A DNA stretch of 64,000 bases from Tachypleus tridentatus (Eukaryota; Arthropoda; Merostomata; Xiphosura; Limulidae), in the NCBI RefSeq assembly GCF_004210375.1, contig NC_134834.1, positions 39,708,264 through 39,772,263 of the forward strand. The letters are read 5' to 3'. Under the pieces are notes generated by a model. That model did not search any database, was not told the origin of the DNA, and saw only the letters and a program-made list of their open reading frames with translations. The first letter of the stretch is position 1, and each line of letters begins with the position of its first letter. A program made the translations under genes and the position numbers. This document shows positions 14,201 to 40,690 of the stretch, piece by piece.

Positions 14201-14296
14201 GCTAGTAGAATTGAATGGAGGGAGTTGTATTTGTGACAAGAATGTGTGGCACTATTATTGGTGGAGGGTTTTCGTCTGGTAATTTGCATGAAAGAC

Positions 14297-14443
14297 TCAT
14301 TGCAATGAATTATTTCCAATGGAGGAGCGGTAGGACACTTGTGGTATGCGCAAAAAAACATTTTTGCTTATGGAGGGCAGCACTGAATGAGTATAGCTAT
14401 TTAAGTGAAAGGTAATATACGGAAAAAATTCATTGCAATGAAT
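14297..14443. promoter_or_regulatory. two perfect palindromes TCATTGCAATGA near the ORF end
   Basis: TCATTGCAATGA at 14,297-14,308 and ATTCATTGCAATGAAT (16-bp perfect palindrome) at 14,428-14,443. Both are kept in the right arm. The ATTGCAAT core resembles a C/EBP half-site pair, but no function can be shown. The second overlaps the end of the 74-codon ORF. Confidence 0.35.
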
Positions 14444-14654
14444 AAAATATGTATACATTTGCAATATGTAATAATGAAGTCATTTTGCGAATAAAATCAA
14501 TAAACTGGTAATTTTCAGTTTGAGCTAATAAATTTCTCATTTCTACTAACATGTTTACAACTCTGCTATTTTTTTCTTCTACCCAAGAAGGAAGTGAAAT
14601 ACTGTCAAAGTTGGAAGTATTATGCAGAAAGTGTAAAGACATCTTGGTCCACAT
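14430..14654 (-). CDS. 74-codon ORF, unrecognised, left-arm copy
   Basis: An ATG-started ORF whose frame stays open about 15 codons upstream of the ATG, so it could be an internal or terminal exon. The peptide is mixed-composition and looks real (SLPSWVEEKNSRVVNMLVEM, ending HIANVYIFYSLQ). The right-arm copy at 40,234-40,458 is open over the same length with only two amino-acid differences (Ala/Thr and Asp/Tyr). I do not recognise the family. It sits beside an S3 SINE and could be a captured exon fragment. Confidence 0.35.
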   Translation of the reverse strand: MWTKMSLHFLHNTSNFDSISLPSWVEEKNSRVVNMLVEMRNLLAQTENYQFIDFIRKMTSLLHIANVYIFYSLQ

Positions 14655-14770
14655 TTCAGTAGCCAGTGTATGAGATTTACTTAACCCTTGTTTGAAAATT
14701 CAGCAGGATAACAATCCATAACTTGGTTTCCTCTGTATGAAATTATTTGAAAGAAAAGGAAAGAATTGTG

Positions 14771-14888
14771 TTTGTGTGTTTTCTTATAGCAAAGCCACAT
14801 CGGGGTACTTGCTGAGCACACCGAGGGGAATCGAACCCCTGATTTCAGCGTTGTATATATCCGTAGACATACCGCTGTACTAGCGGAG
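14771..14888 (-). repeat. S3 SINE, left arm
   Basis: Clean copy on the reverse strand. The head CTCCGCTAGTACAGCGG is followed by ATGTCTACGG, a B box GGGGTTCGATTCCCC and the tail TATAAGAAAACACAC. The partner in the right arm is at 40,001-40,120. Confidence 0.88.
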
Positions 14889-15182
14889 GGCGAAGGAAAG
14901 AAATTGGGATGTAAAATTTACAAAGTGATCAGCTTAATGTCATATACTTTTTTAGTTGGAAAGTTTTTAAAAACTAATGAACGTAAAACAAAAAATAAAC
15001 AAAATACCAGCATACAAAAAAACAGTTAACTGATTATTGAAGTAATATACTTAAAGTAATACCCGCTTATTAATTAGTGTTTTGTTCCAGAAATGATCTT
15101 TTTATCTCTAATATTTTACTACTTAGTACAAATTTATATTTAAATCACTATATCATTTTTTTGCAACTTTTCACAAAATGTT

Positions 15183-16552
15183 AAGTGCTTATTCTTTGGA
15201 TTCAGTCTTCTGAACAACTCACATACAGAACCCCAAACCAAAGAGTGTCTACCATATAGAATTTAACACACTTTTCTTTAAGTTTTAAATGTAGAAAAAG
15301 CTCCTGGTGTACATATTACATTAAAACTTACCCTTGGCCAATCTGTTTTATCATAGTATATTTTTATAGGAATCGCCCATTGAAACAATACTTTTTAACT
15401 TTTTCATGATTTTTTCATTTGCTATTTTCTTTTTCTTTGACAAAATATCATAATATAACAATTAGCATGCCATGCAAATATGCGTTTGCCAACAAATATT
15501 ACTTTTAATAATTGCTGTAAAGAACATTCGACATTGCACTATTAAATTTATGACCAAAGTTGAATCTACTTAAACAAAAGATCAATGTTATGTTTCACAG
15601 GCAAAAAGATTCATTATGAAAAACGCTCATTAATCAGGACCGTATACACATTTACAATTATTTAACATGTTTCGTGTTTTACAAGTATAATAATTTGTTG
15701 TAATTTTCTATCATTTATTACATGTTGTATAAGTAATTATTACTTAGCATTTTCAATTCCTTATGTAACTTTCCGCAGCAGACTTTTAGTAAAAATTAGG
15801 TATGTTTTCTATATAAATTATCATAAATAAATACTTTTTGTTTTTTTTAACAGGAGACAAGAGAAGTTGCCACGACTTACTATGAATATAACTCGCATTA
15901 CTGAACGTAACATAGATGAGATGATACTGTCAACAAGTTTAATGTCCGAAATTTTCAACTTTGTGATAACTGCTGTATATATTTTAAATTAGTTGGTTTT
16001 AGAGTTATTCTGTTCCAATTCTTCCTCATCACTACAAGTCATCCTCTACGATAAGGTGCTAAATGTTGGTCAAGTACCATCTTTACTACGATTATTTTAA
16101 AATTATGTTTATGTTTAACTAACAGATGTTTGTATAATAACTAGCAGGTGCTCGTTGAAACAATTCAACTGTTGCGCAGTTGGTAAAAATGTTTTGGTTT
16201 TCAAGCAATGGGTGCATGCAGCACAATATAGAGCGCCCAAGTTCGCTAAGTAGTTGTGTAGATTTTCCAGCTGGATTCCGCTGTTTCTGGTCATTTTACT
16301 GAGCGCAAGAAGAGGCCTCTACCGAGGTGAGCATTTTTTGACAGTTGTCGTTTCTATACGAAGTTTCAAAGGGATTTTATTCAATGCAATTTATTCGACA
16401 TGATACAATAAAATAATGCATGAATAGAATACCAACATGAAAAAATTACATCTTTAAACTGTTACTTTCATTTGGTCGACAAAATAAGTCCTCTTTTTCT
16501 GTTGTTATTTCTTTCTTTTTTTCATAAAATTTCCTCATAAAACAAAACATTT
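15183..16552. other. 1.4-kb segment present only in the left arm
   Basis: In the right arm the flanks meet directly (junction near 39,706: TATATCTTAACATTTTGTG). In the left arm they are about 1.37 kb apart, with a short TAAG at both joints. No transposon ends or genes were seen inside, so a deletion from the right arm through microhomology is the simpler reading. An insertion in the left arm is not excluded. Confidence 0.7.
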
Positions 16553-17370
16553 TTAATAAGATATATTTTTCTCGGATTGACTGCCTCCCAGTGAAACAGG
16601 ATAAGTCTTCACATTGACAATGCTAAAAATCAGTGGACACAGCATATAGCGTGATGTGGGTATGCTATAAGATCTTTGATTGCTTATATTTGTTTTGCGT
16701 TTGAAACTGGTTCTATGGCAGATCGTAAACGCGGCAGGATAATTCTGTTACAAAATAAGAACTTTTCTTAATCAAGTACGTAGTTCTTTCATAATCTGAA
16801 ATATTTAAAACATTTAATTATAAAAAGTCGCGCAACCGTAACAACGCAACATGGGCCAAAGATTGATTGATTTCAACGGTGCACATCTTTAACAGCTCTA
16901 GCGGCACGAGTTAACAAACATAACGACCTTGCGCGGCTTTTGCAACACTTCGTGACCTTCCAGTAGTCCTCACATAATTAACCTCATTTAATCACAATAA
17001 CAATATTGTTTTCCAGCACTGCATTAGCAGGTCTGGTTACTTATAGAAAGCAGTTAAACTCAATGAACCCAAATATTCTTGTTTTAATTATATTATCTAT
17101 TTCTGTCAAGCAACTATTGTTAGTTTCTTCATACACCCTCAAGTCCTTCCTGCATATCCTAAAAATAATTGTTGAACATTTACTTGTCTGATTTAATGGC
17201 TCCTCTGCAGCCTAGGTAATGACATGTGTTTGGATTCTATCACTAAAGCTGTTGTCACTTTTAAGATCTATTTACTTTGGTTGAACGTAAGAATTCTTAT
17301 ATTTTTCATCTCATGTGCTTCACTACAATGCTTCCAATCTCAGTACCATTCTTGTATTTTAGTTCAACAC

Positions 17371-17630
17371 ATGGCTCGGCATGTTAGGGAGTTCGATTCG
17401 CAATTTGAAGGTTGCGGGTTCGAATCCCCGTTTACTGAACATGCTCACCTTTTCAGTCGTTGAGGTGATATAGTGTGATGGTCAATTCCACTATTCACTA
17501 TTAAAAGAGTAGCCCAAGAGTTGACGGTGGAGGGTGATAACTAGCTTCCTTCTCTCTAGTCTTCCACTGCTACATTAGGAACAGCTAGCAAAGATAGCCC
17601 ACTTGTTACTTTGCGCGAATTTCACAACAA
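17371..17630 (+). repeat. S1 SINE, diverged, left arm
   Basis: ATGGCTCGGCATGTTAGGG head, B box GGGTTCGAATCCCC, S1 body with AAGAGTAGCCCAAGAGTTGA and tail TTTGCGCGAATTTCAC. It runs straight into an S2 SINE tail. In the right arm (38,679-38,914) about 260 bp of other sequence separates the two. Confidence 0.85.
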
Positions 17631-17730
17631 CTTACAACGCTAAAAACCGGGTTTCGATACCCGTGGTGGGCAGAGCACAGATAGTCCATGGTGTAGTTTT
17701 GTGCTTAATTCAAAACAACAACAAACAACA
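17631..17730 (+). repeat. S2 SINE, 5'-truncated, left arm
   Basis: Starts at TTACAACGCTAAAAACC and continues through the B box GGGTTTCGATACCC, GTGGTGGGCAGAGCACAG, AGTTTTGTGCTTAATTC and (CAA)n. The right-arm partner (38,287-38,418) keeps the head GGCTCAGCGGTTTGT on its minus strand, so the left copy lost its head with a deletion of about 270 bp. Confidence 0.85.
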
Positions 17731-17974
17731 ACCAGTCTAAATATACTATTACTAAGTTTTCAATTTATAAACATATTCTTGCGTCTATAACTTGGATTCG
17801 TAGAGAAAGCGGACTGTCTAACTATTTGAATGATGGTTAATTGTGGATTTAGACCTTTGATAGGATAGAGTTCTTTGATCCAATGCTAACTTAGCATGTT
17901 TGTTACCACAAAATAGCTAAAATCAGCATCAAACGGGCCATCATTACAAGTGGTGTTCGAATCATTTTGTCCCC

Positions 17975-18045
17975 CTCTACCCCAGTGGCTCAACAAAAAA
18001 TTAGCAGACTAACAGTGCTAAAAATCGAATTTCAATGTCGATTGT
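17975..18045 (+). repeat. possible S2 head fragment
   Basis: CCCAGTGGCTCAACAAAAA, CAGACTAACAGTGCTAAAAATCG and TTTCAATGTCGATTG follow the order of the S2 tRNA-like head, in a poor copy. Also present near 37,970-38,040. Confidence 0.35.
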
Positions 18046-18959
18046 GCAGTTGCACGCTAAACAACCGACCGATCAGCCAATTGAATCATTTTGTAAATAC
18101 GAAGTTGCCGTTGTGACTTCTTTTTTGTCTTTCTGTAACTCGGTTGTCGTGTGTTCTTTGCTGCATTTTTACAATTCGATTCCGAACAAACAGTAGGCCA
18201 GTGTAAGCCCCATATCGAAAAGAATTTTGCATTTTTACATAACATATAGGATTTTCTAATATACACAAAGTTAAAATGAAGTTAGTTAGCCATTCTTTGT
18301 AAATTTGAAGAAAGAGTACCGGAACGTAAACATTCCATATTATTATGAACAATACTGGTATATGACGGAGGCTAAGAAGAGTTATGTGAGTTAATTATAA
18401 AGTAAATACGTAAAGCGCCATATAGTTTAATAGTGGTTAAATGCATAATAGCTTACGCATGCGTACTAATAATGGTTTACTCATGCTAAAATTACCAGCC
18501 TTAAACAATTACTTTTAAAGTAGTTAAATGAACTCAAATGTTACACAGGTAAATTGATAGCGATATAAAATTATATAATCAGGACTCTATCGTACATATG
18601 GCTTGATAATTTTATGAAGTTTTAATGAATAGCCGTGTTTTTCAAGGGTTTTCTAAATGTCATTGTGTTTGAATGTTTTTCAGGGGGTGTGTGATCAGTC
18701 GTCAGGTGCTTACTCACCAACCTCTTCACTTCGTCATCCAAACTTTTTAATTTGACTTGTAAGTGGGGTAACGAAAACGGCGTCAAATCTTTTGAATTTT
18801 CACATAGATTTCGATGACTAAGGTACACCTTTCAACCCTAGTAGCCAACAGCAGTCGATTTAGCAGATTGTCATATTTTAAAAGCTTCATAGCTCTCGAA
18901 TTTTGCCGGTTACAGTAGCGATATCTGTGGAGAGTTTAGGAAAGATGTTTTGCCACATT

Positions 18960-19300
18960 GATCAAATTCGACCCTCATAAAATAAGAAAATATCTTTGTA
19001 TGTCCGAGGTTATCAACAGACTCAAACCAGTGTGACAAAACAATGAGAAATAACATTCTACATTTGTCCTTTATGTTTCATCAGAGTTCGACCACCTTGG
19101 ACTGAGTTATAAAGCAAAAATAGTATAAAAAATCTATCCCCATGTTAACGGATATGGCTGTAACCTTGACCTAAAGTATATCAAATTTTGTCCATATCCA
19201 TTCAGCTGTTTATGATAAATCGTGCTGAGAAACATACACAGAAATAAACACACTGGGATGAAAACATAACCTTCATCATCTTCAATGGCAGATACAATGA
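18960..19300 (+). repeat. possible dispersed repeat (family not identified)
   Basis: The run TGTAACCTTGACCTAAAGTAT, followed by ATCAAATTTTGTCCATATCC and GTGCTGAGAAACATACACAG, has the style of widely dispersed repeats in marine invertebrates. I know this only from memory. The only second copy seen here is its palindrome partner near 36,480-36,780, so this call rests on resemblance. Confidence 0.25.
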
Positions 19301-19805
19301 TTGGTTTAAACACCTGGAAGTTACTTTCTATTTTTGGAGCAAATGGAATTCTGTAACGTTTCTTGTGTGCAGGAAAACATTTTGTTCACTGCCTTGACTG
19401 AGGAGTTAAATGAACCGTCAGTACAGGATAAATGTCAGCTCTGTCCACAGATTTAGCTGCTGTTTCATCAGTCTTTTTTTACATAGAAACAGTTATGGAT
19501 ATACCCGACACATAATACCCAGATATTTTCAGTTACCTAATTTTCAGTGTTTAATTTTGAAAGCACACAAAGTTTAGATGCCTTGTAACGGGCTGGGTGC
19601 ACGTAGTCAGACACATTAATTTTCATAATCCAGTCGAAGTTAAAGAACTGGAACAAAAACTGTTAAACTGGACACACATGAGTTCTATATAACCATCTTT
19701 ACTTGGTTAGAAATATTTACTGTGGGTAGATATTGTTCTTTACTTAAAGAGAAACTACTTGTTTGTTAAATTGTTTAGTAACGTTTACCAGATATATTAG
19801 TGTTA

Positions 19806-20078
19806 TTGTTTGTTTGGGGAAATTTCGTCCAAAGCTACACGAGAGCTATCCACGCTAGCCGTCTAATTTAATAGTTTAAGACAAGAGAGAAGACAGCTGG
19901 GTTTCACCACCCATCGCCAACTCTTGGGCTTGTCTTTTACCAAAGAATATTGGGATTAATCGTCACATTATAACGCCACCACGGCTGAAAGGACGAACAT
20001 GTTTGATGTGACGGGGATTCGAATCCATTCCCCTCATATTACGAATTTAACGCTCTAACTATGATGTTATGTCGGGGC
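19806..20078 (-). repeat. S1 SINE, diverged, left arm
   Basis: Reverse-strand S1 with the TTTGTTTGGGGAAATTTCG tail, CACCCATCGCCAACTC body, B box GGGATTCGAATCC and a decayed head ending in GGGGC. Partner 35,660-35,933. Confidence 0.85.
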
Positions 20079-20592
20079 ATTAGGCCTAGAATCTAAATCT
20101 AATTGTTTAACGGGGCAACGCTTGAATTGTAACCTTACGATACATTTATATTTTATAGATCATTTCCCAGTAAATATATTTTAATGCATGATTCTGTCCA
20201 AATAATCACATTTTTCATGAAACAAGCACCACCTACAGGCTGCTAAATATACCTACAGTTTCGGAAATATAATGTGTTGATGATAAATATGTAATTAATG
20301 TGTTAAAATGAGGCAACACTCATAGTTTACAACAAAAGTTTATTTTCATATCAGTTAACTACTGATCTTGATTTACAGTAAAATGGTAAAACATAAGGAC
20401 AAACACAGTTATTAAATTTCAAGTTGTTCACAAATTAAGAAAAGTTTATATATTAATGCTATATTTCAGTACCAGCCTAAATATATATAAAAATAACTGT
20501 GGGCTATTGTTTTAGGTAGGATTGTTTGATCTGTATCAAAAATTATTCCTGTTCTTGAATCTCTTGTGGTTCTAGTATTAATATTCATGATG

Positions 20593-20679
20593 TCCGCCGA
20601 TGACACAGCAGTATATCTTTAGGTTTAAATTTCTAAAATCAGGGGATAAATTCCCCTCAGTAGAGACAGTGGATAACCA
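20593..20679 (+). repeat. S3-like SINE fragment, left arm
   Basis: ACACAGCAGTATATCTTTAGG head and the GGGGATAAATTCCCCTCAG B-box region match S3 order loosely. Partner near 35,071-35,160 on the minus strand. Confidence 0.45.
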
Positions 20680-20835
20680 AATATTCATGAGAATTTCATT
20701 CTCCGAAAGAAAATACTTGTATTACATTCGTGTATGTTTGTAACTTCGTCAGTCACAATGACTGTCCGACAACCCTTTGAATGGGTTTTCGATCAACTAG
20801 AAGGCCAGGACTTGACTGCACATTGCACGTATGTA

Positions 20836-22226
20836 CACTCTTGTGCAAATTAATTGAAACAAGACAGAAAATTACGATTTTTTCCATTTTTTGCGTTTTA
20901 TTTAAGAGAATCCAAAAATTACTCACAAATTAATACATGATATGACCGCCTTTTTTTTTCAGCAGATCATTAATCGGCTTTGGCATCGAGTCCACGAGTT
21001 GACTACAATCTTTACTAATTTTTGGATCGCGGTACCACACCTCAATTATGGCCTCAATTAGCTTATCTTGCGCATTACAGTCTTTTGCCCAAAGACTTTC
21101 TTTACAAATCGTCCAAAGATTTTCATTAGGATTTAAGTCCGGAGCGTTTTCAGGCCAGTCCAGCACCTTTATTCGCGTTGTAGTCATAAAATTCTTCACA
21201 AGTTTCGATGTGTGGTACGGAGCCAGATCTTGCTGAAAAATGCCAGATCCATCTGGAAATCTCTTTTTCAATTCTGGAATGACTCTTCTCTGCAAAACTT
21301 CGATGTACTGTGGTCCTGGCATTATACCTTCTACGATATGTAAGCCTCCGAAGCCATAGTAGCTGTAAAAGCCCCAAAACATCTTCTTCAAGGGATGTTT
21401 TACGAACTGATTGATGTGAGATTCTCGAAGTTTCTCACCAGGAGATCTGCGAACATGCAGACTTCTTTAACCCTGTACGAAAAAATGAGTCTCGTCACTG
21501 AATAACACCTTTCTCCACTGTTCTTGTGTCCAGTTCTTGTATTTCAGACCCCATTGATACCATTGTTTCGTCATTGAGTTGATAAGAAGTTGTTTTTTGA
21601 CTGGTCTCCTTGCCCTTCGACCGACATCAAGAAGCCTACGACGAACCGTTGAAGAGCTGACTTTTATTCCTTTGACCTCCAAATCTCTTTTTATGGCGTC
21701 AATTCTTTTCCGTTGATCTTTCACACACTCCCTAACCACGTACGCGTCGTCTCTTGGCGTTGTTTTCCTTTTTCAGCCACATCTTTCTTTACGTTTCGGA
21801 CTGATAGATCCGGTACTCACCTTGGCCTTGATTACACCGCTGACGGTCGATAGGCTAACACCAACAACGTCCGCGATTTCCCTGTAAGTCATGCCGGTGG
21901 GCTCGTGCAGTGTCACAATCTTTGTACGCTTTCTAGGAGTCACGTCCATTGTGTATGACGGTTGAAAGACGACTGATAAGCAGTAAAACAAATAGCCTCA
22001 TGTTTTAGGAAACTCTAACGCAATTTCGAATGACGTAATATTCCTCAAAATTTCGTCATATATCCCAAAAAATAGATCGACCGTACTGCAAAACACATCA
22101 AATTACGCCGTCTGTGTGAAAAAATGACTATTAAAGGAAATCAGCGGGTCCAGCGAGCCTACACCGGCCGCCATGCTGAAAATATTGTAAAATGACCATT
22201 TGTTTCAATTAATTTGCACAAGGGTA
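20836..22226 (-). mobile_element. Tc1-like DNA transposon, nearly whole, left arm
   Basis: Terminal inverted repeats of about 29 bp (core CTTGTGCAAATTAATTGAAA) sit between TA dinucleotides (20,834-20,835 and 22,227-22,228), the Tc1/mariner target site. The 1.39 kb element carries one transposase frame of about 340 codons on the minus strand. A second copy at 33,948-34,914 has lost 0.42 kb. Because both copies sit at the same place in the palindrome arms, the insertion is older than the duplication. Confidence 0.95.
20930..21949 (-). pseudogene. Tc1-type transposase with two in-frame stops
   Basis: Starts at MDVTPRKRTKI (ATG 21,949-21,947). The N-terminal helix-turn-helix reads MTYREIADVVGVSLSTVS. 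A second helical region contains VSSSTVRRRLLDVGR. Catalytic residues are visible: the first Asp in LFSDETHF, the second Asp in QQDLAPYH, and Glu in LNPNENLW, 35 residues after the second Asp, which is the DD34E spacing of Tc1. It ends GGHIMY. The length (about 339 aa) is normal for Tc1. The frame is unbroken except for TGA at 21,773-21,775 (after KERCG) and TAA at 21,467-21,469 (after FFVQG), so the copy cannot make a full protein. The first stop is also in the right-arm copy. Confidence 0.92.
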
Positions 22227-22932
22227 TAACAGAAATATGATTGTGTTACGTGCAGCAGCCACGTTGTTTTAAAAGGTCATTCTTGTACCTTGTTCAACCA
22301 AGTGCAACAAAACCAGTTGCCATTATTACATGATTCAGTTCTAAGCATTTACTACTTTTAGAACCTCACGTGGGAGACTGGTTTCCACGAGACTAGATAA
22401 TTACTCACTTCATCATCGAGTATGAGCAATTTAAACCTTTAACTAAGTGTCATTAATGTGTTGCTATTGGTGCAAATAATACGAAGACCTTGACTAGCAA
22501 AAATAAATATTTCATTTTTGTGTGTTTTTGTAACTAGTATAATATATTCACTCTCGCCGTGGAACTCTAAGATCCTGTCATGATTCACAAAGACCTTAAT
22601 CCACCAATCAAGTGTCTCCTTTATCTTAATTACTTCTATAGCTACCTTGCTACGTCAATGCGTCGATTCCTTTATTGATTTGATTCTTGCGAGTTCCCAA
22701 ACTCAATACAGTTTCACGCGTTTAATTAATGTAACGAAAGGTGCAAGGAATCAACGGTCCGATTTGAAAAGAACTGTAGTTCTATTGTATCATCAACATT
22801 GAAACTATAATAATTTTATACATTTGGCATCGAAAAGTAATCATATACTTTAAATATCAACAAATATGGGGAAAAATGATTAATAGTTTTACTGTGTGCA
22901 TCTAAAAAAAGTTACTTGTTTTTCGACACATT

Positions 22933-23039
22933 CCCTTGCAGCGCAGTGGTATGTCTGCAGAATTTACAACGCTATAAAGCAGGTTTCGATACATATAATG
23001 GTCAGAGCACGTTGTGTAGTTTTGTGCTTAACTATAAAG
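22933..23039 (+). repeat. S2 SINE, left arm
   Basis: CAGCGCAGTGGTATGTCTGCAG head, TTACAACGCTATAAAG, a TTTCGATAC B box, GGTCAGAGCACG and TAGTTTTGTGCTTAA tail. Partner 33,188-33,294. Confidence 0.8.
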
Positions 23040-23404
23040 TTTCTCGAAAATAGTCAATTACTAACTCAAAGTATTTATGAATAAAAATATATTTAATGTA
23101 TTATTATTTTATGCCAGTTACAACTACGACGTTCATTTAAGTTTTATTTGACTTTGTTTCGTTTGACTGTTGAAACCTGGATTCCATCGTTTTAATTTCG
23201 CAGACATAACACTGGGTCACTAGGGGATTTGACTTTGTCCACTTAAATTATTGTTGTAATGCATTGTTCTATTATTAGAAATAGGTTTGAAGATAGCGTT
23301 TTGGTTTTGTTCACCTTTAATCTTTCTGTCGTTTGGTTCTCATTTTCTAGGCAGAAAACGTTACTGTTAATTGAAACAACGGAAAGGGTTGGAAGGGTCA
23401 AGTA

Positions 23405-24000
23405 ATGTTTTTTGTAAGCATATACAACAGCGAGTGGTTAGAATGGTCAAGTTATGTTGTACAAGTAAAGAATGGTCCAACAATTGACTTAACTACATTG
23501 TCCTCCACAATTCTGTTAAAAGATTCAATTTCCATTATAAATTCATTAATTGAACAATTGTGTTATTCTTTCACAGTATCGGAAGAAAGAAACTTTAACT
23601 CCAAAAGCGTAAAAGATATATTAAGTTTCGGTATTTATAATAATTATATGTTTTTCAATAACCAGGAATTTAAACAAGTAATAGGAGTTTCATTGGACGC
23701 TAACTATTCTACTTGTATTGCAAATTTATATAGTTATTTTTATGAGAAAATGTTTATTGAACATTACCTAAATCCAGGCATTTTTGCTTTAACTTACAGA
23801 TATGATTGAATTAGTGTAAAAATCCTGAGATAAATGATGTTATTAACACTATTTGTACAGTAGAATTAGAAATTGAAAATACGTCAGTATCTAACGTAGA
23901 GGCACATTATTTAGATTTAGAAATAAAAATAATTGATAATTATATCAATCTAAAATATTTTAATGAAAAAATATTTTGCTTTTGAAATATATGGTTAACC
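23405..24000 (+). mobile_element. reverse-transcriptase fossil, left arm (Penelope-like or a related lineage)
   Basis: Translated pieces (NLYSYFYEKMF, ALTYRYD, and further on VEAHYLDLEIKI) follow the order of a reverse-transcriptase palm domain in a family with YLDD-type active sites and a xxAPFLDL block. I know this family from cnidarian and other invertebrate genomes. Its placement among Penelope-like or virus-associated elements is uncertain to me, so I treat it as a fossil. The fragment is broken and lacks recognisable ends. A second copy lies at the mirror position (32,230-32,820), so it predates the duplication. Confidence 0.6.
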
Positions 24001-24240
24001 TTTTTCAATAATCGTGTACCCTATTCTTCTGTTGTAAGCATTTTAACTTCACAATTAGAATGATTTTGTAAAAATTCCATTTTATTATTAATGTTGAATT
24101 ATTGATGCAAAAATTAATATTTAATGAATTCAATAAAGAAACTCTAAATAAAAATATTAAAAATATTATTTGATGAATATAAGAATGTGTTATATAAATA
24201 TAAAGAAGTAAAGTTTAAGGAAATTTTACTGAAACTTTCT

Positions 24241-24473
24241 CATAAGTATTTTTCCGTCGCGCCAAACGTGCTCGCCCTTTCAGCCGTGGAGGCGTTATTA
24301 CGCGACGGTCAATTCCACTATTCGTTGGTAAAAGAGAAGCCCAATAGTTGGCTCTGGGTGGTGATGACTAGCTGCTTTCCCTCTAGTCTTACACTGCTAA
24401 ATTAGGGACGGCTAGCACAGATAGCCCTCGAGTAGCTTTGTGCGAAATTCAAAAAACAAACATAAGTATTTTT
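24241..24473 (+). repeat. 5'-truncated S1 SINE with 13-bp target duplication, left arm
   Basis: The S1 body and tail (24,254-24,460), lacking the tRNA-like head, are flanked by perfect CATAAGTATTTTT repeats at 24,241-24,253 and 24,461-24,473. Both repeats are kept in the right arm (31,974-31,986 and 31,754-31,766). This is LINE-type target-primed insertion, older than the duplication. Confidence 0.93.
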
Positions 24474-24554
24474 AGTTATTAATAATGTCATTTAAACAAC
24501 TTCGACCTACTTTTATGCGGATGAACACATTGTCACCTACAAATGCTTGTTTAG

Positions 24555-24676
24555 TGTGTGTTTTTCTTATAGCAAAACTACATTAAGCTATTTGCTGAGC
24601 TCACCAAGGAGAAGCGAACCGCTGATTTTAACCTTGTAAATGCACAGACTTACCGCTGTACTAGCGGTGGCGCTCC
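24555..24676 (-). repeat. S3 SINE, left arm
   Basis: Reverse copy with tail TGTGTTTTTCTTATAGC, body TTGCTGAGCTCACC and head TACCGCTGTACTAGCGGTGG. Partner 31,551-31,672. Confidence 0.85.
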
Positions 24677-24710
24677 ATTATAGTATGAAAATTGTTAGTT
24701 ACAGAAGATG

Positions 24711-29880: not shown

Positions 29881-30600
29881 TCCATTTCAGCACCATCCAT
29901 GTTAGAACATCCGATTCCATTGGTAACTGCTGCAGTAGGAATACCACTTTTGTTAATTTCTTTAAGGCAAGAACAAAACAGTATTTTTTTATGTTTTGTT
30001 GAATAGATCTTAATATAATTTCTATGTTATTAATAGTTGAACCATGTGTGTATACACTTAATAATGAATTTAAAGGGGCTGAGAAATAAAAAAAATATTA
30101 GTTACTTTCTTTTAATTAAAATTATAAATAATCAAAAGGTTACAAACGCTTGCATTAATAAGAAATATATAAGGGGAAATTAGCATCAATAGTTTACAAT
30201 AAAGTGTATTTTAAGTGTGGAGATTCACTTAAAGCTTAAATTGTGGATCACTTTTTACAATATTACAAGTTCTTCTGATGAAAAACATTCCTTGTAAGTA
30301 TGTTATTGTTCAACCTGTTTTTTATATGTAAATACAATAAGGTACTGTGCGTGTCAGTAGAAATACTTGAAATTGAAACGTGTAAAATATGGGTAACCTA
30401 AACTATTACAATTCGAGTACTTGAGATAAATATAAAAGGCATTTTCATTCAAAAAAGTTCTTTAACTAATTAATGATTTCCAGTTTATTTCAATATGGTC
30501 TTAAAATTGAAATTTATTGCGAGTGTAATAATTATTAAATAATCCCTCTTAAACTCTAACATTTTATTCCTGTTTACATTCGTTAATTTTATTTTAAAGA

Positions 30601-30700
30601 GATGCAACAGGGGTCAACTTGCCATGTCCACCGTAGGGAACTGAACCCGCCTATTTTAGTGTTATATGTTCATATACTTACTGACGTTCCACTGGGAGAG
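30601..30700 (-). repeat. possible old S3 SINE
   Basis: TCCACCGTAGGGAACTGAAC, TAGTGTTATATG, ACTTACTGACGTTCCACTGGGAGAG follows the S3 reverse-strand order, strongly diverged. Confidence 0.4.
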
Positions 30701-31298
30701 AACGTCTCTGTGGCTGTCGTTGTTAAATATTATTATTTCTAGATTATAATTATTTTCCATTTTTAATTGACATAAACACTGATGTACAAATAAGAGTCAA
30801 ATTAAATCATCTGTGTTATTTATTAGCGCTTTTCATTTGTAGTGTCATAATTTGGAAGTGCAATTGTTGTGGATGTAAAACAGTAAAATCAGTAAACACA
30901 GAAGACCATGCAAATAAAGATGACAGAAAAAAAATTAAATATTCACTTCTAGCACAAAAAGTATCAGTATTTTATCTCATGGTTTTCATTGATCTGGTCA
31001 CATATAAGGGAGACAATTCTTCATGTCGTCAGATAACTTTTCATTAATTATGAATTTACGTAAATTCCGTCCAGGGGACCAATACTTGCGCTAATGTATA
31101 ATAATATTTTCTTCATTACCATTTAAGCCGTCTCCAAACCTTTAATAAATGTTTATTCTATAGATTTGTACTGCATGACTCTGTTTATGAGTCATTACCT
31201 CGTAAAGTTGGCTCTCACTCATTCCATTTAGTAGTAGAGAGACATATATACGTATGATGTATAATGTGAGGACTTCCATCCTTCATATACTACGATTG

Positions 31299-31514
31299 CT
31301 AATTTAGTAGTGCAAGACTAGAGGGAAGGCAGCTAGTCATCACCACCCACCGCCAACTCTTGAGCTATTCTTTTGCCAACGAACAGTGAGATTGACCGTC
31401 ACATTATAATGCTCCCACGGCTGAAAGGGCGAGCATGTTTGGTGCGACCGGGATTCGAACCCCCGACCCTCGGATTACGAGTCGAACGCCTCAGCACACT
31501 TGCCATGCCGGGCT
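31299..31514 (-). repeat. S1 SINE cut by the inner edge of the right arm
   Basis: Mirror of the S1 at 24.7 kb, but its 3' tail (about 60 bp) is missing and replaced by spacer sequence. Head GGCATGGCAAGTGTGCTGAGG and B box GGGTTCGAATCCC intact. Confidence 0.9.
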
Positions 31515-31550
31515 TCCATCTACTGTAACTATCAATTTTCATACTATAAT

Positions 31551-31672
31551 GGAGCGCCACCACTAGTACAGCGGTAAGGCTGTGCATTTACAAGATTATA
31601 ATCAGCGGTTCGTTTCTCCTCGGTGAGCTCAGCAAATAGCCTGATGTAATTTTGCTATAAGAAAAACACACA
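31551..31672 (+). repeat. S3 SINE, right arm
   Basis: Mirror copy of 24,555-24,676: CACTAGTACAGCGGTAAGG head to CTATAAGAAAAACACACAC tail. Confidence 0.85.
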
Positions 31673-31753
31673 CTAAACAAGCATTTGTAGGTGACAGTGT
31701 GTTCATCCGCATAAAAGTAGGTCGAAGTTGTTTAAATGACCTTATTAATAACT

Positions 31754-31986
31754 AAAAATACTTATGTTTGTTTTTTGAATTTCGCACAAAGCTACTCGAG
31801 GGCTATCTGTGCTAGCCGTCCCTAATTTAGCAGTGTAAGACTAGAGGGAAGGCAGCTAGTCATCACCACCCTCATCCAACTGTTGGGCTACTTTTTTACC
31901 AACGAATAGTGGAATTGACCGTCGCGTAATAACGCCTCCACGGCTGAAAGGGCGAGCATGTTTGGCGCGACGGAAAAATACTTATG
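31754..31986 (-). repeat. 5'-truncated S1 SINE with 13-bp target duplication, right arm
   Basis: S1 body 31,767-31,973 between AAAAATACTTATG repeats, the mirror image of 24,241-24,473. Confidence 0.92.
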
Positions 31987-32229
31987 AGAAACTTTCAGTA
32001 AAATTTCCTTAAACTTTACTTCTTTATATTTATTTAACACATTCTTATGTTCATCAAATAATATTTTTAATAATTTTATTTAGAGTTTCTTTATTGAATT
32101 TATTAAATATTAATTTTTGCATCAATAATTCAACATTAATAATAAAATGGATTTTTTACAAAATCATTCTAATTGTGAAGTTAAAATGCTTACAACAGAA
32201 GAATAGGGTACACGACTATTGAAAAAGGT

Positions 32230-32820
32230 AAACCATATATTTCAAAAGCAAAATATTTTTTCATTAAAATATTTTAGATTGATATAATTATCAATTATTT
32301 TGATTTCTAAATCTAAATAATGTGCCTCGTAAGATACTGACGTATTTTCAATTTCTAATTCTACTGTACAAATAGTGTTAATAACATCATTTATCTCAGG
32401 ATTTTTTACACTAATTAAATCATATCTGTAAGTTAAAGCAAAAATGCCTGAATTTAGGTAATGTTCAAAAAACATTTTCTCATAAAAATAACTATATAAA
32501 TTTACAACACAAGTAGAATAGTTAGCGTCCAATGAAACTCCTATTACTTGTTTAAATTACTGGTTATTGAAAAACATATAATTAATATAAATACCGAAAC
32601 TTAATATATCTTTTATGCTTTTGGAGTTAAAGTTTCTTTCTTCCGATACTATGAAAGAATAACACAATTGTTCAATTAATGAATTTATAACGGAAATTGA
32701 ATCTTTTAACAGAATTGTGGAGAACAATGTAGTTAAGTCAATTGTTGGACCATTCTTTACTTGTACAACATAACTTGACCATTCTAACCACTCACTGTTG
32801 TATATGCTTACAAAAAACAT
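32230..32820 (-). mobile_element. reverse-transcriptase fossil, right arm
   Basis: Mirror copy of the fossil at 23.4 kb with the same recognisable palm-domain pieces. It is broken and has no ends. It adds no second insertion event. Confidence 0.6.
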
Positions 32821-33187
32821 TACTTGACCCTTCCAACCCTTTCCGTTGTTTCAATTAACAGTAACGTTTTCTGCCTAGAAAATGAGAACCAAACGACAGA
32901 AAGATTAAAGGTGAACAAAACCATAACGCTATCTTCAAACCTATTTCTAATAATAGAACAATGCATTACAACAATAATTTAAGTGGACAAAGTCAAATCC
33001 CCTAGTGACCCAGTGTTATGTCTGCGGAATTAAAACGATGGAATCCAGGTTTCAACAGTCAAACGAAACAAAGTCAAATAAAACTTAAATGAACGTCGTA
33101 GTTGTAATTGGCATAAAATAATGATACATTAAATATATTTTTATTCATAAATACTTTGAATTAGTAATTGACTATTGTCGAGAAACT

Positions 33188-33294
33188 TTGTAGTTAAGCA
33201 CAAAACTACACAACGTGCTCTGACCATTGCATGTATCGAAACCTGCTTTATAGCGTTGTAAATTCTGCAGACATACCACTGTGCTGCAAGGGAA
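33188..33294 (-). repeat. S2 SINE, right arm
   Basis: Mirror of 22,933-23,039, with GTTAAGCACAAAACTACAC tail and CAGACATACCACTGTGCTG head. Confidence 0.8.
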
Positions 33295-33947
33295 TGTGTG
33301 TCGAAAAACAAGTAACTTTTTTTAGATGCTCACAGTGAAACTATTAATAATTTTTCCCAATATTTGTTGATGTTTAAAGTATATGATTACTTTTCGATGC
33401 TAAATGTATACAATTATTATAGTTTCAATGTTGATGATACAATAGAACTACAGTTCTTTTCAAATCAGACCGTTGGGAACTCGCAACAATCAAATCAATT
33501 AAGGAATCGGCGCATTGACGTAGAAAGGTAGCTATAGAAGTAATTAAGATAAAGGAGACACTTGATTGGTGGATTAAGGTCTTTGTGAATTATGACAGGA
33601 TCTTAGAGTTCCACGGCGGGAGTGAATATTTTATACTAGTTATAAAAACACACAAAAATGAAATATTTAGTTTTGCAACGTCAAGGTCTTCGTATTATTT
33701 GCACCAATAGCAACACATTAATGACACTTAGTTAAAGGTTTAAATTGCTCATACTCGGTGATGAAGTGAGTAATTATCTGGTCTCGTGGAAACCAGTCTC
33801 TCACGTGAGGTTCTAAAAGTAGTAAATGCTTAGAACTGAATCATGTAATAATGTCAACTGGTTTTGTTGCATTTGGTTGAACAAGGTACAAGAATGACCT
33901 ATTAGAATAACGTGGCTGCTGCACGCAACACAATCATATTTCTGTTA

Positions 33948-34914
33948 CATCCTTGTGCAAATTAATTGAAACAAATGGCCATTTTACAATATTTTCAGCA
34001 TGGCGGCCGGTGTAGGATCGCTGGACCCACTGATTTCCTTTAATAGTCATTTTTTCACACAGACGGCGTAATTTGATGTGTTTTGCAGTACGGTCGATCT
34101 ATTTTTGGGATATATGACGAAATTTTGAGGAATATTACGCCTTTCGAAATTGCGTTAGACTTTCCTCAAAAATGAGGCTATTTGTTTTACTGCTAATCAG
34201 TCGTCTTTCAACCGTCATACACAATGGACGTGACTCCTAGAAAGCGTACAAAGATTGTGACACTGCACGAGCCCACCGGCATGACTTACAGGGAAATCGC
34301 AGACGTTGTTGGTGTTAGCCTATCGACCGTCAGCGGTGTAATCAAGGCCAAGGTGAGTACCGGATCTATCAGTCCGAAACGTAAAGAAAGATGTGGCTGA
34401 AAAAGGAAAACAACGCCAAGAGACGACGCGTACGTGGTTAGGGAGTGTGTGAAAGATCAACGGAAAAGAAGTGACGCCATAAAAAAGAGATTTGGAGATC
34501 AAAGGAATAAAAGTCAGCTATTCAACGTTTCGTCGTAGACTTCTCGATGTCGGTCGAAAGGCAAGGAGACCAGTCAAAAAACAACTTCTTACTCTCCTGA
34601 AAACTCTCCGGACTTAAATCCTGATGAAAATCTTTGGACGATTTGTAAAGAAAGACTTCGGGCAAACGACTGTAATGTGCAAGATAAGCTAATTGAGGCC
34701 ATAATTGAGGTGTGGTACCGCGATCCAAAATTAGTAAAGATTGTAGTCAACTCGTGGACTCGATACCAAAGCGGATTAATGATCTGCTGAAAAATAAAGG
34801 CGGTCATATCATGTATTAATTTGTGAGTAATTTTTGGATTCTCTTAAATAAAACGCAAAAAAATGGAAAAAATCGTAATTTTCTGTCTTGTTTCAATTAA
34901 TTTGCACAAGAGTG
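33948..34914 (+). mobile_element. Tc1-like transposon, internally deleted, right arm
   Basis: Same ends and TA flanks as the left copy (TA at 33,946-33,947 and 34,915-34,916). The start MDVTPRKR and the TGA after KERCG are shared with the left copy. About 424 bp are missing: the sequence jumps from KKQLL to the SPENSPDLNPDENLW region, removing the first two catalytic Asp residues. Small frame changes occur before the jump. The shared stop was present before the duplication; the deletion came after it. Confidence 0.93.
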
Positions 34915-35070
34915 TACATACGTGCAATGTGCAGTCAAGTCCTGGCCTTCTAGTTGATCGAAAACCCATTCAAAGGGTTGTCGGACAGTCATTGTGACTG
35001 ACGTAGTTACAAACATACACGAATGTAATACAAGTATTTTCTTTCGGAGAATGAAATTGTCATGAATATT

Positions 35071-35160
35071 TGGTTATCCACTGTCTCTACTGAGGGGAAT
35101 TTATCCCCTGATTTTAGAAACTTAAACCTAAAGATATACCGCTGTGTCATCAGAGGACAT
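35071..35160 (-). repeat. S3-like SINE fragment, right arm
   Basis: Mirror of 20,593-20,679 (TACTGAGGGGAATTTATCCCC, TACCGCTGTGTCATC). Confidence 0.45.
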
Positions 35161-35659
35161 CATGAATATTAATACTAGAACCACAAGAGATTCAAGAACA
35201 GGAATAATTTTTGATACAGATCAAACAATCCTACCTAAAACAATAGCCCACAGTTATTTTTATATATATTTAGGCTGGTACTGAAATATAGCATTAATAT
35301 ATAAACTTTTCTTAATTTGTGAACAACTTGAAATTTAATAGCTGTGTTTGTCCTTATGTTTTACCATTTTACTGTAAATCAAGATCAGTAGTTAACTGAT
35401 ATGAAAATAAACTTTTGTTGTAAACTATGAGTGTTGCCTCATTTTAACACATTAATTACATATTTATCATCAACACATTATATTTCCGAAACTGTAGGTA
35501 TATCTAGCAGCCTTGTTTCATGAAGAATGTGATTATTTGGACAGAATCGTGCATTAAAATATATTTACTGGTATATGATCTATAAAATATAAATGTATCG
35601 TAAGGTTACAATTCATGCGTTGCCCCGTTAAACAATTAGATCTAGATTCTAGGCCTAAT

Positions 35660-35933
35660 GCCCCGATATAACATCATAGTTAGAGCGTTAAATTCGTAAT
35701 ATGAGGGGAATGGATTCGAAATCCCGTCACATCAAACATGTTCGTCCTTTCAGCCGTGGTGGCGTTATAATGTGGCGATTAATCCCAATATTCTTTGGTA
35801 AAAGACAAGCCCAAGAGTTGGCGATGGGTGGTGAAACCCAGATGTCTTCTCTCTAGTCTTAAACTATTAAATTAGAGACGGCTAGCGTGGATAGCTCTCG
35901 TGTAGCTTTAGACGAAATTTTCCCAAACAAACA
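35660..35933 (+). repeat. S1 SINE, diverged, right arm
   Basis: Mirror of 19,806-20,078: GCCCCGATATAACATC head, TGGATTCGAAATCCC B-box region, CGAAATTTTCCCAAACAAAC tail. Confidence 0.85.
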
Positions 35934-37161
35934 ATAACACTAATATATCCTGTAAACGTTACTAAACAATTTAACAAACAAGTAGTTTCTCTTTAAGTAA
36001 AGAACAATATCTACCCACAGTAAATATTTCTAACCAAGTAAAGGTGGTTATATAGAACTCATGTGTGTCCAGTTTAACAGTTTTTGTACCAGTTTTTTAA
36101 CTTCGACTGGATTATGAAAACTAATGCGTCTGACTACGTGCACCCAGCCTGTTACAAGGCATCTAAACTTTGTTTGCTTTCAAAATTAATCACTGAAATT
36201 AGGTAACTGTAAATATCTGAGTATTATGTGTCGGGTATATCCATAACTGTTTCTACGTAAAAAAGACTGATGAAACAGCAGCTAAATCTGTGGACAGAGC
36301 TGACATTTATCCTGCACTGACGGTTCATTTAAATCCTCAGTCAAGGCAGTGAACAAAACGTTTTCCTGCACACGAGAAACGTTACAGAATTCCATTTGCT
36401 CTAAAAATAGAAAGTAACTTCCAGGTGTTTAAACCAATCATTGTATCTGCCATTGAAGATGATGAAGGTTATGTTTTCATCCCAGTGTGTTTATTTCTGT
36501 GTGTGTTTCTCAGCACGATTTATCATAAACAGATGAATGGATATGGACGAAATTTGATATACTTTAGGTCAAGGTTACAGCCATATCCGTTAACATGGGG
36601 ATAGATTTTTTATACTATTTTTGCTTTATAACTCAGTCCAAGGTGGTCGAACTCTGATGAAACATGAAGGACATATGTAGAATATTATTTCTCATTGTTT
36701 TGTCACACTGGTTTGAATCTGTTGATAACCACGGACATACAAAGATATTTTCTTATTTTATGAGGGTCGAATTTGATCAATGTGGCAAAACATCTTTCCT
36801 AAACTCTCCACAGATGTCGCTACTGTAACCGGCAAAATTCGAGAGCTGTGAAGCTTTTAAAATATGACAATCTGCTAAATCGACTGTTGTTGGCTACTAG
36901 GGTTGAAAGGTGTACCTTAGTCATCGAAATCTATGTGAAAATTCAAAAGATTTGACGCCGTTTTCGTTACCCCACTTACAAGTCAAATTAAAAAGTTTGG
37001 ATGACGAAGTGAAGAGGTTGGTGAGTAAGCACCTGACGACTGATCACACACCCCCTGAAAAACATTCAAACACAATGACATTTAGAAAACCCTTGAAAAA
37101 CACGGCTATTCATTAAAACTTCGTAAACTTATCAAGCCATATGTACGATAGAGTCCTGATT

Positions 37162-37455
37162 ATATAATTTTATACATGTGTGGCATGGCCAAGCGCGTAA
37201 GGCGTGCGACTCGTGATACAAGGGTCGCGAGTTCGCGCCCGCTTCGCGCTAAACATGCTCGCCCTCCCAGATGTGGGGGCGTATAATGTGACGGTCAATC
37301 CCACTATTCGTTGGTAAAAGAGTAGCCCAAGAGTTGGCGGTGGGTGGTGATGACTATCTGCCTTCCCTCTAGTCTTACGCTGCTAAATTAGGGACGGCTA
37401 GCACAGATAGCCCTCGAGTAGCTTTGTGCGAAATTCCAAAACCATATATTTTATA
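37162..37455 (+). repeat. S1 SINE private to the right arm, with target duplication
   Basis: A full-length S1 (about 37,175-37,443; TGGCATGGCCAAGCGCG head, AAATTCCAAAACC tail) sits between ATATAATTTTATA (37,162-37,174) and ATATATTTTATA (37,444-37,455). The left arm at about 18,560 has a single uninterrupted ATATAATTTTATA, i.e. the empty site. The insertion therefore came after the duplication. The head has small losses near the A and B boxes. Confidence 0.92.
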
Positions 37456-38286
37456 TCGCTATTAATTTACCTGTGTAACATTTGAGTTCATTTAACTACT
37501 TTAAAAGTAATTATTTAAGGCTGGTAATTTTAGCATGAGTAAACCATTATTAGTACGCATGCGTAAGCTATTATGCATTTAACCACTACTAAACTATATG
37601 GCGCTTTGCGTATTTACTTTATAATTAACTCACATAACTCTTCTTAGCCTCCGTCATATACCAGTATTGTTCACAATAATATGGAATGTTTACTTTCCGG
37701 TACTCTTTCTTCAAATTTACAAAGAATGGCTAACTAACTTCATTTTAATATTGTGTATATTAGAAAATCCCATATGTTATGTAAAAATGCAAAATTCTTT
37801 TCGATATGGGGCTTACACTGGCCTACTGTTTGTTCGGAATCGAATTGTAAAAATGCAGCAAAGAACACACGACAACCGAGTTACAGAAAGACAAAAAGAA
37901 GTCACAACGGCAACTTCGTATTTACAAAATGATTCAATTGGCTGATCGGTCGGTTGTTTAGCGTGCAACTGCACAATCGACATTGAAATTCGATTTTTAG
38001 CACTGTTAGTCTGCTAATTTTTTGTTGAGCCACTGGAGTAGAGGGGGGACAAAATGATTCGAACACCACTTGTAATGATGGCCCGTTTGATGCTGATTTT
38101 AGCTATTTTGTGGTAACAATCATGCTAAGTTAGCATTGGATCAAAGAACTCTATCCTATCAAAGGTCTAAATCCACAATTAACCATCAATCAAATAGTTA
38201 AACAGTCCGCTTTCTCTACGAATCCAAGTTATAGACGCAAGAATATGTTTATAAATTGAAAACTTAGTAATAGTATATTTAGACTG

Positions 38287-38418
38287 GTTGTTGTTTGTTG
38301 TTGTTTTGAATTAAGCACAAAACTACACCATGGACTATCTGTGCTCTGCCCACCACGGGTATCGAAACCCGGTTTTTAGCGTTGTAAGTCTGCAAACAAA
38401 CCGCTGAGCCAATGGTGG
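38287..38418 (-). repeat. S2 SINE, full length, right arm
   Basis: Best S2 copy: tail (TTG)nTTTTGAATTAAGCACAAAAC, CTGTGCTCTGCCCACCACGG, B box GGGTATCGAAACCC, TTGTAAGTCTGC and head ACCGCTGAGCCAATGG. Confidence 0.9.
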
Positions 38419-38678
38419 ACATTGAGATTGGAAGAATATAATAATGTTTGTTCTGTAAATTGGTTTTGATGTAAAACTGAAAAATAAAATTCCTACCGAG
38501 GCTGGAAAAAATATAATATTGCTAGAACTGTGATATAGACCTGAGAGAAAACATTGCGACTGAGGCCGTAAAGGGATAATAATGTTGGAATTGTAGTATA
38601 GAACTGCTACACAGAAAATTTTTACTGAAAATGGAAAAACATAATATTGTTAAAGCTGAAATGTAAAACTGTTTGGTT

Positions 38679-38914
38679 TGTTGTGAAATTCGCGCAAAGT
38701 AACAAGTGGGCTATCTTTGCTAGCTGCTAGAGAGAAGGAAGCTAGTTATCACCCTCCACCGTCAACTTTTGGGCTACTCTTTTAATAGTGAATAGTGGAA
38801 TTGACCATCACACTATATCACCTCAACGACTGAAAAGGTGAGCATGTTCGGTAAACGGGGATTCGAACCCGTAACCTTCAAATTGCGAGTCAAACGCCTT
38901 AACATGCCGAGCCA
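38679..38914 (-). repeat. S1 SINE, diverged, right arm
   Basis: Mirror of 17,371-17,630. A few bases after GCTAGCTGC are missing compared with the left copy. Confidence 0.85.
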
Positions 38915-40000
38915 TGTGTTGAACTAAAATACAAGAATGGTACTGAGATTGGAAGCATTGTAGCGAAGCACATGAGATGAAAAATAATATATATATAAAT
39001 ATTATTTGTAATATAAGAATTCTTACCAAAGTAAGAATTACCAAAGTAAAAAGACACTTCATAAATAGATCTTAAAGTGACAACAGGTTTAGTGATAGAA
39101 TCCAAACACATGTCATTACCTAGGCTGCAGAGGAGCCATTAAATCAGACAAGTAAATGTTCAACAATTATTTTTAGGATATGCAGGAAGGACTTGAGGGT
39201 GTATGAAGAAACTAACAATAGTTGCTTGACAGAAATAGATAATATAATTAAAGCAAGAATCTTTGGGTTCATTGAGTTTAACTGCTTTCTATAAGTAACC
39301 AGACCTACTAATGCAGTGCTGGAAAACAATATTGTTATTGTGATTAAATGAGGTTAATTATGTGAGGGTACTGAAAGGTCACGAAGTGTTGCAAAAGCCG
39401 CGCAAGGTCGTTATGTTTGTTAGCTCGTGCCGCTAGAGCTGTTAGAGATGTGCACCGTTGAAATAAATCAATCTTTGAAATGTTTTAAATATTTCAGATT
39501 ATGAAAGAACTTCGTACTTGATGAAGAAAAGTTTACGATCTGCCATAAAACCAGTTTCAAACGCAAAACAAGTCTAAGCAATCAAAGATCTTATAGCATA
39601 CCCACATCACGCTATATGCTGTGTCCACTGATTTTTAGCATTGTCAATGTGAAGACTTATCCTGTTTCACTGGGAGGCAGTCAATCCGAGAAAAATATAT
39701 CTTAACATTTTGTGAAAAGTTGCAAAAGAATGATATAGTGATTTAAATATAAATTTGTACTAAGTAGTAAAATATTAGAGATAAAAAGATCATTTCTGGA
39801 ACAAAACACTAATTAATAAGCGGGTATTACTTTAAGTATATTACTTCAATAATCAGTTAACTGTTTTTTTTTGTATGCTGGTATTTTGTTTATTTTTTGT
39901 TTTACGTTCATTAGTTTTTAAAAACTTTCCAACTAAAAAAATATATGACATTAAGCTGATCACTTTGTAAATTTTACATCCCAATTTCTTTCCTTCGCCC

Positions 40001-40120
40001 TCCGCTAGTACAGCGGTATGTCTACGGATATATACAACGCTGAAATCAGGGGTTCGATTCCCCTCGGTGTGCTCAGCAAGTACCCCGATGTGGCTTTGGT
40101 ATAAGAAAACACACACACAC
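40001..40120 (+). repeat. S3 SINE, right arm, with short (AC)n tail
   Basis: Mirror of 14,771-14,888. The tail has grown to AAAACACACACACAC. B box GGGGTTCGATTCCCC is perfect. Confidence 0.88.
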
Positions 40121-40233
40121 AATTCTTTCCTTTTCTTTCAAATAATTTCATACAGAGGAAACCAAGTTATGGATTGTTATCCTGCTGAATTTTCAAACAA
40201 GGGTTAAGTAAATCTCATACACTGGCTACTGAA

Positions 40234-40458
40234 ATGTGGACCAAGATGTCTTTACACTTTCTGCATAATACTTCCAACTTTGACAGTATTTCACTTCCTT
40301 CTTGGGTAGAAGAAAAAAATAGCAGAGTTGTAAACATGTTAGTAGAAATGAGAAATTTACTAACTCAAACTGAAAATTACCAGTTTATTTATTTTATTCG
40401 CAAAATGACTTCATTATTACATATTGCAAATGTATACATATTTTATTCATTGCAATGA
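40234..40458 (+). CDS. 74-codon ORF, unrecognised, right-arm copy
   Basis: Mirror of 14,430-14,654, opening MWTKMSLHFLHN and open for the same length. It differs by Thr for Ala in RNLL(T)QTEN and Tyr for Asp in FI(Y)FIRK. The upstream frame stays open to a TGA about 15 codons before the ATG. No family recognised. Whether either copy is used cannot be told from sequence. Confidence 0.35.
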   Translation: MWTKMSLHFLHNTSNFDSISLPSWVEEKNSRVVNMLVEMRNLLTQTENYQFIYFIRKMTSLLHIANVYIFYSLQ

Positions 40459-40690
40459 ATTTTTTCCGTATATTACCTTTCACTTAAATTGCTATACTCA
40501 TTCAGTGCTGCCCTCCATAAACAAAAGTGTTTTTTACGCATACCACAAGTGTCCTACCGCTCCTCCATTGGAAATATTTCATTGCAATGAGTCTTTCATG
40601 CAAATTACCAGACGAAAACCCTCCACCACACATAGAATAGTGCCACGCATTCTTGTCACACATACGACGCCCTCCATTCAATTCTACTAG

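Follow-up and report, generated by a model that had tools for sequence, protein, structure and literature searches.

The 64,000-nucleotide stretch of Tachypleus tridentatus DNA analysed here (the window, G000:C10:39708264-39772263) contains a large palindrome at positions 14202-40690, in which two inverted arms enclose a 6,369-bp spacer (24930-31298) carrying the remnant of an immunoglobulin (Ig) receptor gene. We conclude that the palindrome is probably an inverted, head-to-head pair of a dispersed duplicon, left behind as the by-product of a fold-back or template switch and not a working device. An earlier sequence-only reading had seen here a palindrome open to arm-to-arm gene conversion and flanking a multicopy or fast-evolving gene. 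The real inverted duplication and the member of a multicopy Ig-receptor family inside it stood up to the analysis, the conversion and the upkeep of the gene did not. All relatives described below were found in the same assembly (2,167,478,450 bases, 205 contigs; C-numbers are contigs of this genome).

Structure of the palindrome

Comparison of the window (GC content 32.6%) with itself by blastn yielded five collinear inverted blocks running from 14202/40690 to 24929/31299. Identity per block ranged from 84.6 to 98.3%, and the lowest value stems from a block with 147 gap letters and 26 mismatches. A global alignment of arm against arm gave 97.4% identity, with 223 mismatches among the 8,511 core columns free of gaps; windows of 250 columns showed 94-100% identity where letters are comparable, and 88% in the short interspersed nuclear element (SINE) at the inner edge. 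Long reverse-complement arms with preserved order are therefore present on either side of the spacer, and the palindrome proposed from the letters alone is real at the level of the assembled sequence.

Two stretches of the left arm, of 1,375 bp (15182-16556) and 424 bp (21159-21582), are absent from the right arm; conversely, 289 bp (38390-38678) and a 281-bp SINE (37175-37455) of the right arm are missing in the left. The 1,375-, 424- and 289-bp stretches are present, wholly or mostly, in relatives elsewhere in the genome, and the SINE is missing from C13:154, C10:35 and C10:55. Because of these states in the relatives we read the private differences, already noticed as indels and one SINE, as three deletions and one insertion. 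Pieces of the Tc1/mariner-type remnant of the left arm (Table 1) are also found in the right arm and in C10:35. Four open reading frames (ORFs) of the arms were compared with Pfam as unspliced frames; two are Tc1-type pieces and two gave no match. The ORFs at 23375-23985, which we take to resemble a decayed piece of reverse transcriptase, had no Pfam match.

Dispersed copies and unit order

Searches of the genome with pieces of the palindrome returned matches on many contigs: 191 for the outer arm (best 34 of 14,146 candidates scored), 47 for the inner arm (best 40 of 4,559), 57 and 42 for the first and second spacer pieces (best 40 of 4,641 and of 257), and 106 for unit C of the right flank (best 40 of 3,964); with scoring limited to a subset of the candidates, the figures are not true copy numbers, and the unscored candidate lists include common repeat words. 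Among the longest matches, those of arm and spacer are mostly 90-96% identical and those of unit C mostly 81-95%. Judged by these matches, the arms and the spacer appear as pieces of a mosaic duplicon of about 25 kb or more, scattered over many contigs.

Seven other loci were compared with the window with regard to segment Y, which holds the Ig gene, segment Z and the arm (Table 1). The full order is found at C10:64.07, C8:70.4 and C10:55.6 and consists of Y, the piece 30962-31512, 3.7-3.9 kb foreign to the window, Z inverted and the inner arm inverted. At C10:38.0 Y is followed by the arm without Z, C13:154 and C10:35.0 carry Z and arm with Y not in the fetched stretch, and at C11:101.04 Y is followed by a reversed block. 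Homology extends beyond 40690 at three loci, which reach 40970-40987, one of them 41955. An alignment of C8:70.4 with C10:55.6, which belong to two separate contigs, spans about 25 kb with 92-94% identity, takes in the 5' flank and leaves a 4.4-kb stretch of C8 unmatched; upstream of Y, 15-16 kb were fetched from both loci, and neither shows a second arm there. Beyond SINEs at about window 24276-24805 the arms of C8:70.4 and C10:64.07 carry other sequence. A long 5' side of Y was available in four relatives. In three of them (C8:70.4, C10:55.6 and C10:38.0) this side is one common flank, which contains no arm and which, SINEs aside, matches nothing in the window over ≥250 bp; C10:64.07, the fourth, carries an inverted duplication of its own.

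Junctions

In the window, inverted Z and arm lie directly upstream of Y. The inner left junction between Z and Y was crossed by none of 56 other matches (best 40 candidates scored), and the outer left junction, where unit B meets the arm, by none of 45 (best 40 of 1,014). A hybrid SINE sits at the right inner junction; by eye, somewhat more than half its length follows the SINE found downstream of Y in relatives and the remainder the SINE at the arm end, which we therefore read as a SINE-SINE deletion that removed Z and a piece of about 4 kb. This interval is also gone from the C10:38.03 unit, where the junction is a different one. Placed in the C8:70.4 unit, the turning points of the palindrome lie about 9.4 kb apart.

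History of the arms

The arm tree was built from seven concatenated segments in six copies (four segments lack at least one copy, and one of these four lacks the right arm). The left and right arms, L and R, are sisters with a bootstrap of 100 and terminal branches of 1.1% and 1.2%. They are 97.7% identical in the tree segments and 94.6-96.1% identical to C10:38, C10:35, C13:154 and C10:55, and L-R is the top value for either arm in each of the six segments holding both. Among 146 L-R differences, 62 look derived in R and 58 in L; at 17 the other copies show both letters, and the remaining 9 fall outside these classes, with the derived state judged in some cases on fewer than four outgroup letters. 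The clustering index of the differences, 1.73, lies among those of the other 14 copy pairs (1.11-3.58). Taken alone, L-R clustering looked strong (index 2.08, reached in 0 of 500 shuffles); a conclusion of ongoing gene conversion was dropped when other copy pairs proved to cluster as strongly. Because divergence is 2.3-2.6%, private changes are balanced and clustering is ordinary, the suggested arm-to-arm conversion lacks support. The arms look like sister paralogues, free of any sign of being held near-identical by conversion.

In the tree of segment Y, the window copy (W) and C10:38 are the nearest pair (96.8%) and are split from the other four copies at bootstrap 100; they also share a stop. 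Since the C10:38 unit (C10:38.03 Mb) has an ordinary 5' flank, the palindrome would be younger than the split of W and C10:38, if the tree is right.

The Ig gene of the spacer and its family

Exon 1 of the relatives comprises a start codon, by eye a signal-peptide-like stretch, and an Ig domain; further exons read by eye hold a cysteine-rich piece, a stalk, a transmembrane segment and a tail. One splice donor in Y looks like GC (by eye), which is a recognized donor type. The open exons of two relatives (L014 and L026) matched Pfam Sp38 (PF07354) with 28.3 and 29.8 bits (cut-off 23.1), and for these two exons V-set, Ig_3 and I-set stayed below their own Pfam cut-offs. At the sequence level the match extends to contactin Ig domains of the PDB (best 4.5e-9); we therefore regard membership in the Ig superfamily, as read from the sequence, as safe and the Sp38 identity of the family as likely.

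The window copy lacks the first 47 of 372 bases of the exon-1 match, so that start codon and signal-peptide stretch are gone at the palindrome junction, and it carries a frameshifting 2-base deletion and a TAA stop. By its sequence it reads as a broken, dead copy of the receptor gene. Two relatives, C10:55.6 and C10:38.0, have a one-base insertion each, the latter also the same TAA. With a broken gene copy inside and arms that are both dispersed repeats, the palindrome gives no support to the idea that it flanks and upholds a fast-evolving gene.

Searching with exon 1 of a relative gave 146 matches (150 of 176 candidates scored). Single close copies account for 89 of these rows, 69 of them full length (query 1 or 2 to 107) and without stop; the other 57 are second halves of listed copies, fragments (some at 78-95%) or distant relatives (about 30-69%). 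There are thus at least 69 open first-exon matches, distributed over 12 contigs. We noted that 25 of the 89 close copies lie on C19 (4-42 Mb), which with 69.8 Mb makes up 3.2% of the assembly and would be expected to hold about 3 by length; owing to local duplication the C19 copies are not independent, and C19 is possibly a special chromosome. The ratio of nonsynonymous to synonymous substitution rates (dN/dS) of exon 1 was 0.35-4.28 in 13 of 15 pairs from 6 copies and undefined (dS 0) in two; the counts are too small, and we drew no conclusion on selection. A narrow literature search returned nothing on ZPBP immunoglobulin genes in chelicerates or on an expansion of the family in arthropods; in one paper zona pellucida binding protein does co-occur with horseshoe crab.

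Recurrence of inverted duplications

Inverted arms were also found at C10:64.07 (3.16 kb, 94.5% identity) and at C11:101.04 (2.5 kb, 95.9%, containing the 3' part of Y). We take these two as events apart from that of the window, because in the Y tree C10:64.07 clusters with C8:70.4 (bootstrap 86) rather than with W. At C10:64.07 the arms turn within a 1.9-kb stretch missing from the window; this turning point may be common to both and deleted in the window, and the junction itself does not speak against this. In the inverted duplication of the second locus (L036-L037, C11:101.034-101.054 Mb), the 3' half of Y is joined to a match of window 49049 onward, beside unit C. Among the 89 exon copies, inverted neighbours make up 2 of 2 pairs within 30 kb, 3 of 10 within 60 kb and 7 of 29 within 120 kb. 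From these counts inverted arrangements are recurrent and yet in the minority, as most neighbours are direct. A bolder proposal, that the Sp38-like Ig family spreads as a very large duplicon through repeated fold-back duplications, with palindromes as its amplification engine concentrated on one small chromosome, strikes us as doubtful.

Origin of the palindrome

We propose that a duplicon with the Ig gene was dispersed over the genome before the palindrome formed. A fold-back or template switch would then have placed inverted Z and arm upstream of Y, with an overlap of about 2 bp, the usual 5' flank and the start of the gene would have been lost at the inner junction, and a SINE-SINE deletion would have taken Z and nearly 4 kb at the right inner edge. 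The fold-back model fits because the spacer is single-copy, sequence beyond the break is lost (the common 5' flank is unmatched in the window) and the junction at 26438-26439 shows microhomology of about 2 bp. Template switching during replication would leave the same marks as fold-back, and which of the two acted we infer rather than observe.

Several points weigh against this history. A few letters beside the inner junction match neither parent exactly, and the C10:38.03 unit is likewise without Z between Y and arm, so either the loss happened twice, since the junctions differ, or the order of events was other than proposed. In one of the six arm segments L-R identity is 96.5% and L-C10:35 identity 96.3%. 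At most 40 candidates, out of hundreds to thousands, were scored per DNA search, and the palindrome was read from the assembled sequence. Finally, joining two separately duplicated neighbouring units would yield much the same sequence. Such units could have been set head to head by inversion or deletion between neighbours, without fold-back synthesis, and both the further arm copies on C10, the contig of the window (35.0, 38.0, 41.2 and 55.6 Mb), and the inverted neighbours among the units would suit that course. We nevertheless hold it to be unlikely, as, in a comparison with four further copies, L and R proved to be each other's nearest (bootstrap 100), and the 5' flank that a second unit should bring along was not found in the window.

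An assembly artefact, either a haplotype misjoin or a read-through hairpin, deserves thought since all sequences involved are repeats and prone to misjoins by assemblers; 2.6% divergence, a private SINE and three deletions between the arms speak against a hairpin, and comparable inverted duplications elsewhere in the assembly speak against an artefact in general, which makes it very improbable. We give even less credence to a maintained palindrome that protects a reproductive gene by arm-to-arm conversion, as on sex chromosomes. The sister relation of L and R and the large family with its Sp38/ZPBP-type Ig domain would agree with it, but the arms have diverged by 2.3-2.6% with balanced private changes and no excess clustering compared with other pairs, and the gene is broken and lies in the spacer rather than in the arms. 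A giant transposon with long terminal inverted repeats was considered as C10:64.07 also has inverted arms, and was rejected: these arms turn elsewhere, the outer part differs and other relatives have no second arm. Many copies with the same ends and the palindrome were not found, the left-arm junctions being unique among the scored matches. A large DNA virus or Maverick-like element was judged unlikely, since the exon edges of Y, read by eye, suggest a spliced gene of the host; Pfam found no viral or Maverick-type domain in seven selected ORFs of the window and two from relatives.

The palindrome, most plausibly a fold-back or template-switch product, illustrates that no upkeep is needed for a large palindrome to emerge among dispersed duplicates. 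It is an ordinary event within an interesting gene family, and leads to the more interesting object, an Ig-receptor family in long blocks with recurring inverted duplications.

Flanking units and other features

Units A and C form an older inverted pair on either side of the palindrome with related open frames; two unit C frames gave nothing over the cut-off in Pfam. Unit A contains a recent 134-bp tandem duplication (2254-2520, 99% identity), and 42335-45541 is a diverged tandem array with a period of about 34 bp, about 96 copies and 66% matches. Neither Rfam (at gathering thresholds) nor ARAGORN gave a hit in the window. In the mitochondrial contig of the assembly (15,008 bp), read with the invertebrate code, COX1 has directly behind it what by eye seems to be the beginning of COX2. 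Among the fetched loci, L033:5226-5774 (minus strand) holds a 183-aa open frame that resembles a portion of a seven-transmembrane receptor (by eye), and L015:6851-7909 (plus strand) a 353-aa frame that resembles a hAT-type transposase (by eye), just past the right inverted arm at C10:64.09 Mb.

Table 1. Features of the palindrome and its surroundings (window positions)
Feature	Position	Strand	Basis or remark
Unit A, inverted relative of unit C (older, about 70-78%)	1192-4188	+	self-comparison
Unit B, adjoining left arm; portion of another dispersed family	13157-14200	+	self-comparison, genome search
Outer left junction, unit B/arm	14200-14202		genome search, junction letters
Left arm	14202-24929	+	copy of duplicon arm; old SINEs, Tc1-type remnant
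Tc1/mariner-type transposase remnant, left arm	20933-21997	-	Pfam DDE_3, HTH_Tnp_Tc3_2
Inner extension of left arm, including segment Z (25543-26439)	24930-26439	+	right side without counterpart
Inner left junction, Z/Y	26438-26439		overlap of about 2 bp
Segment Y, remnant of Sp38-type (likely) Ig gene	26438-30961	+	cysteine-rich, stalk, transmembrane and tail pieces by eye
Right arm	31299-40690	-	reverse complement of left; three other loci stay homologous outward past 40690
Hybrid SINE, right inner junction	31299-31513		by eye
SINE private to right arm	37175-37455		self-comparison, arm alignment, relatives
Continuation of unit past right arm	40691-41955		at C10:35.03 Mb the match reaches 41955, broken at 40987 by 5 kb in that locus
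Unit C, dispersed family; 192-aa open frame (51906-52481)	49637-53639	-	self-comparison, genome search

Comparison with known systems

Members of the Sp38/ZPBP family are expressed in sperm and bind the egg coat. The likeness to Pfam Sp38 (PF07354) consists in exon 1 of two open relatives scoring above the cut-off; the match is confined to the Ig domain, and by eye the gene of the window seems to differ in having a transmembrane segment and a tail. SINE-mediated mosaic segmental duplications are dispersed mosaic blocks with breakpoints at SINEs. The window shares mosaic blocks and SINE breakpoints with them, and differs in that its unit bears an Ig receptor gene with many open copies.

With human fold-back inverted duplications, as described in PMC3907307, the window has in common an inverted copy beside a single-copy spacer, loss past the break and microhomology. 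In that source microhomology measures 2-8 bp at 13 junctions, 7 of which have 2 bp, and the spacers span 766-70,466 bp. The duplications of the patients described there run to megabases beside terminal deletions, whereas that of the window measures about 12 kb, is found in a reference assembly and is old enough for 2.6% divergence. Palindromes of sex chromosomes (the willow W and, per the same source, the human Y; PMC7023750) likewise combine large inverted arms with a short spacer. The four main arms of the willow W average >99% identity, and conversion was inferred in that source; in contrast, the window shows no conversion signal, no gene was found in its arms among the four ORFs compared with Pfam, and the gene of the spacer is broken. 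One arm pair of the willow W described there, 96-99% identical over most of its length and with many indels, closely resembles the arms of the window.

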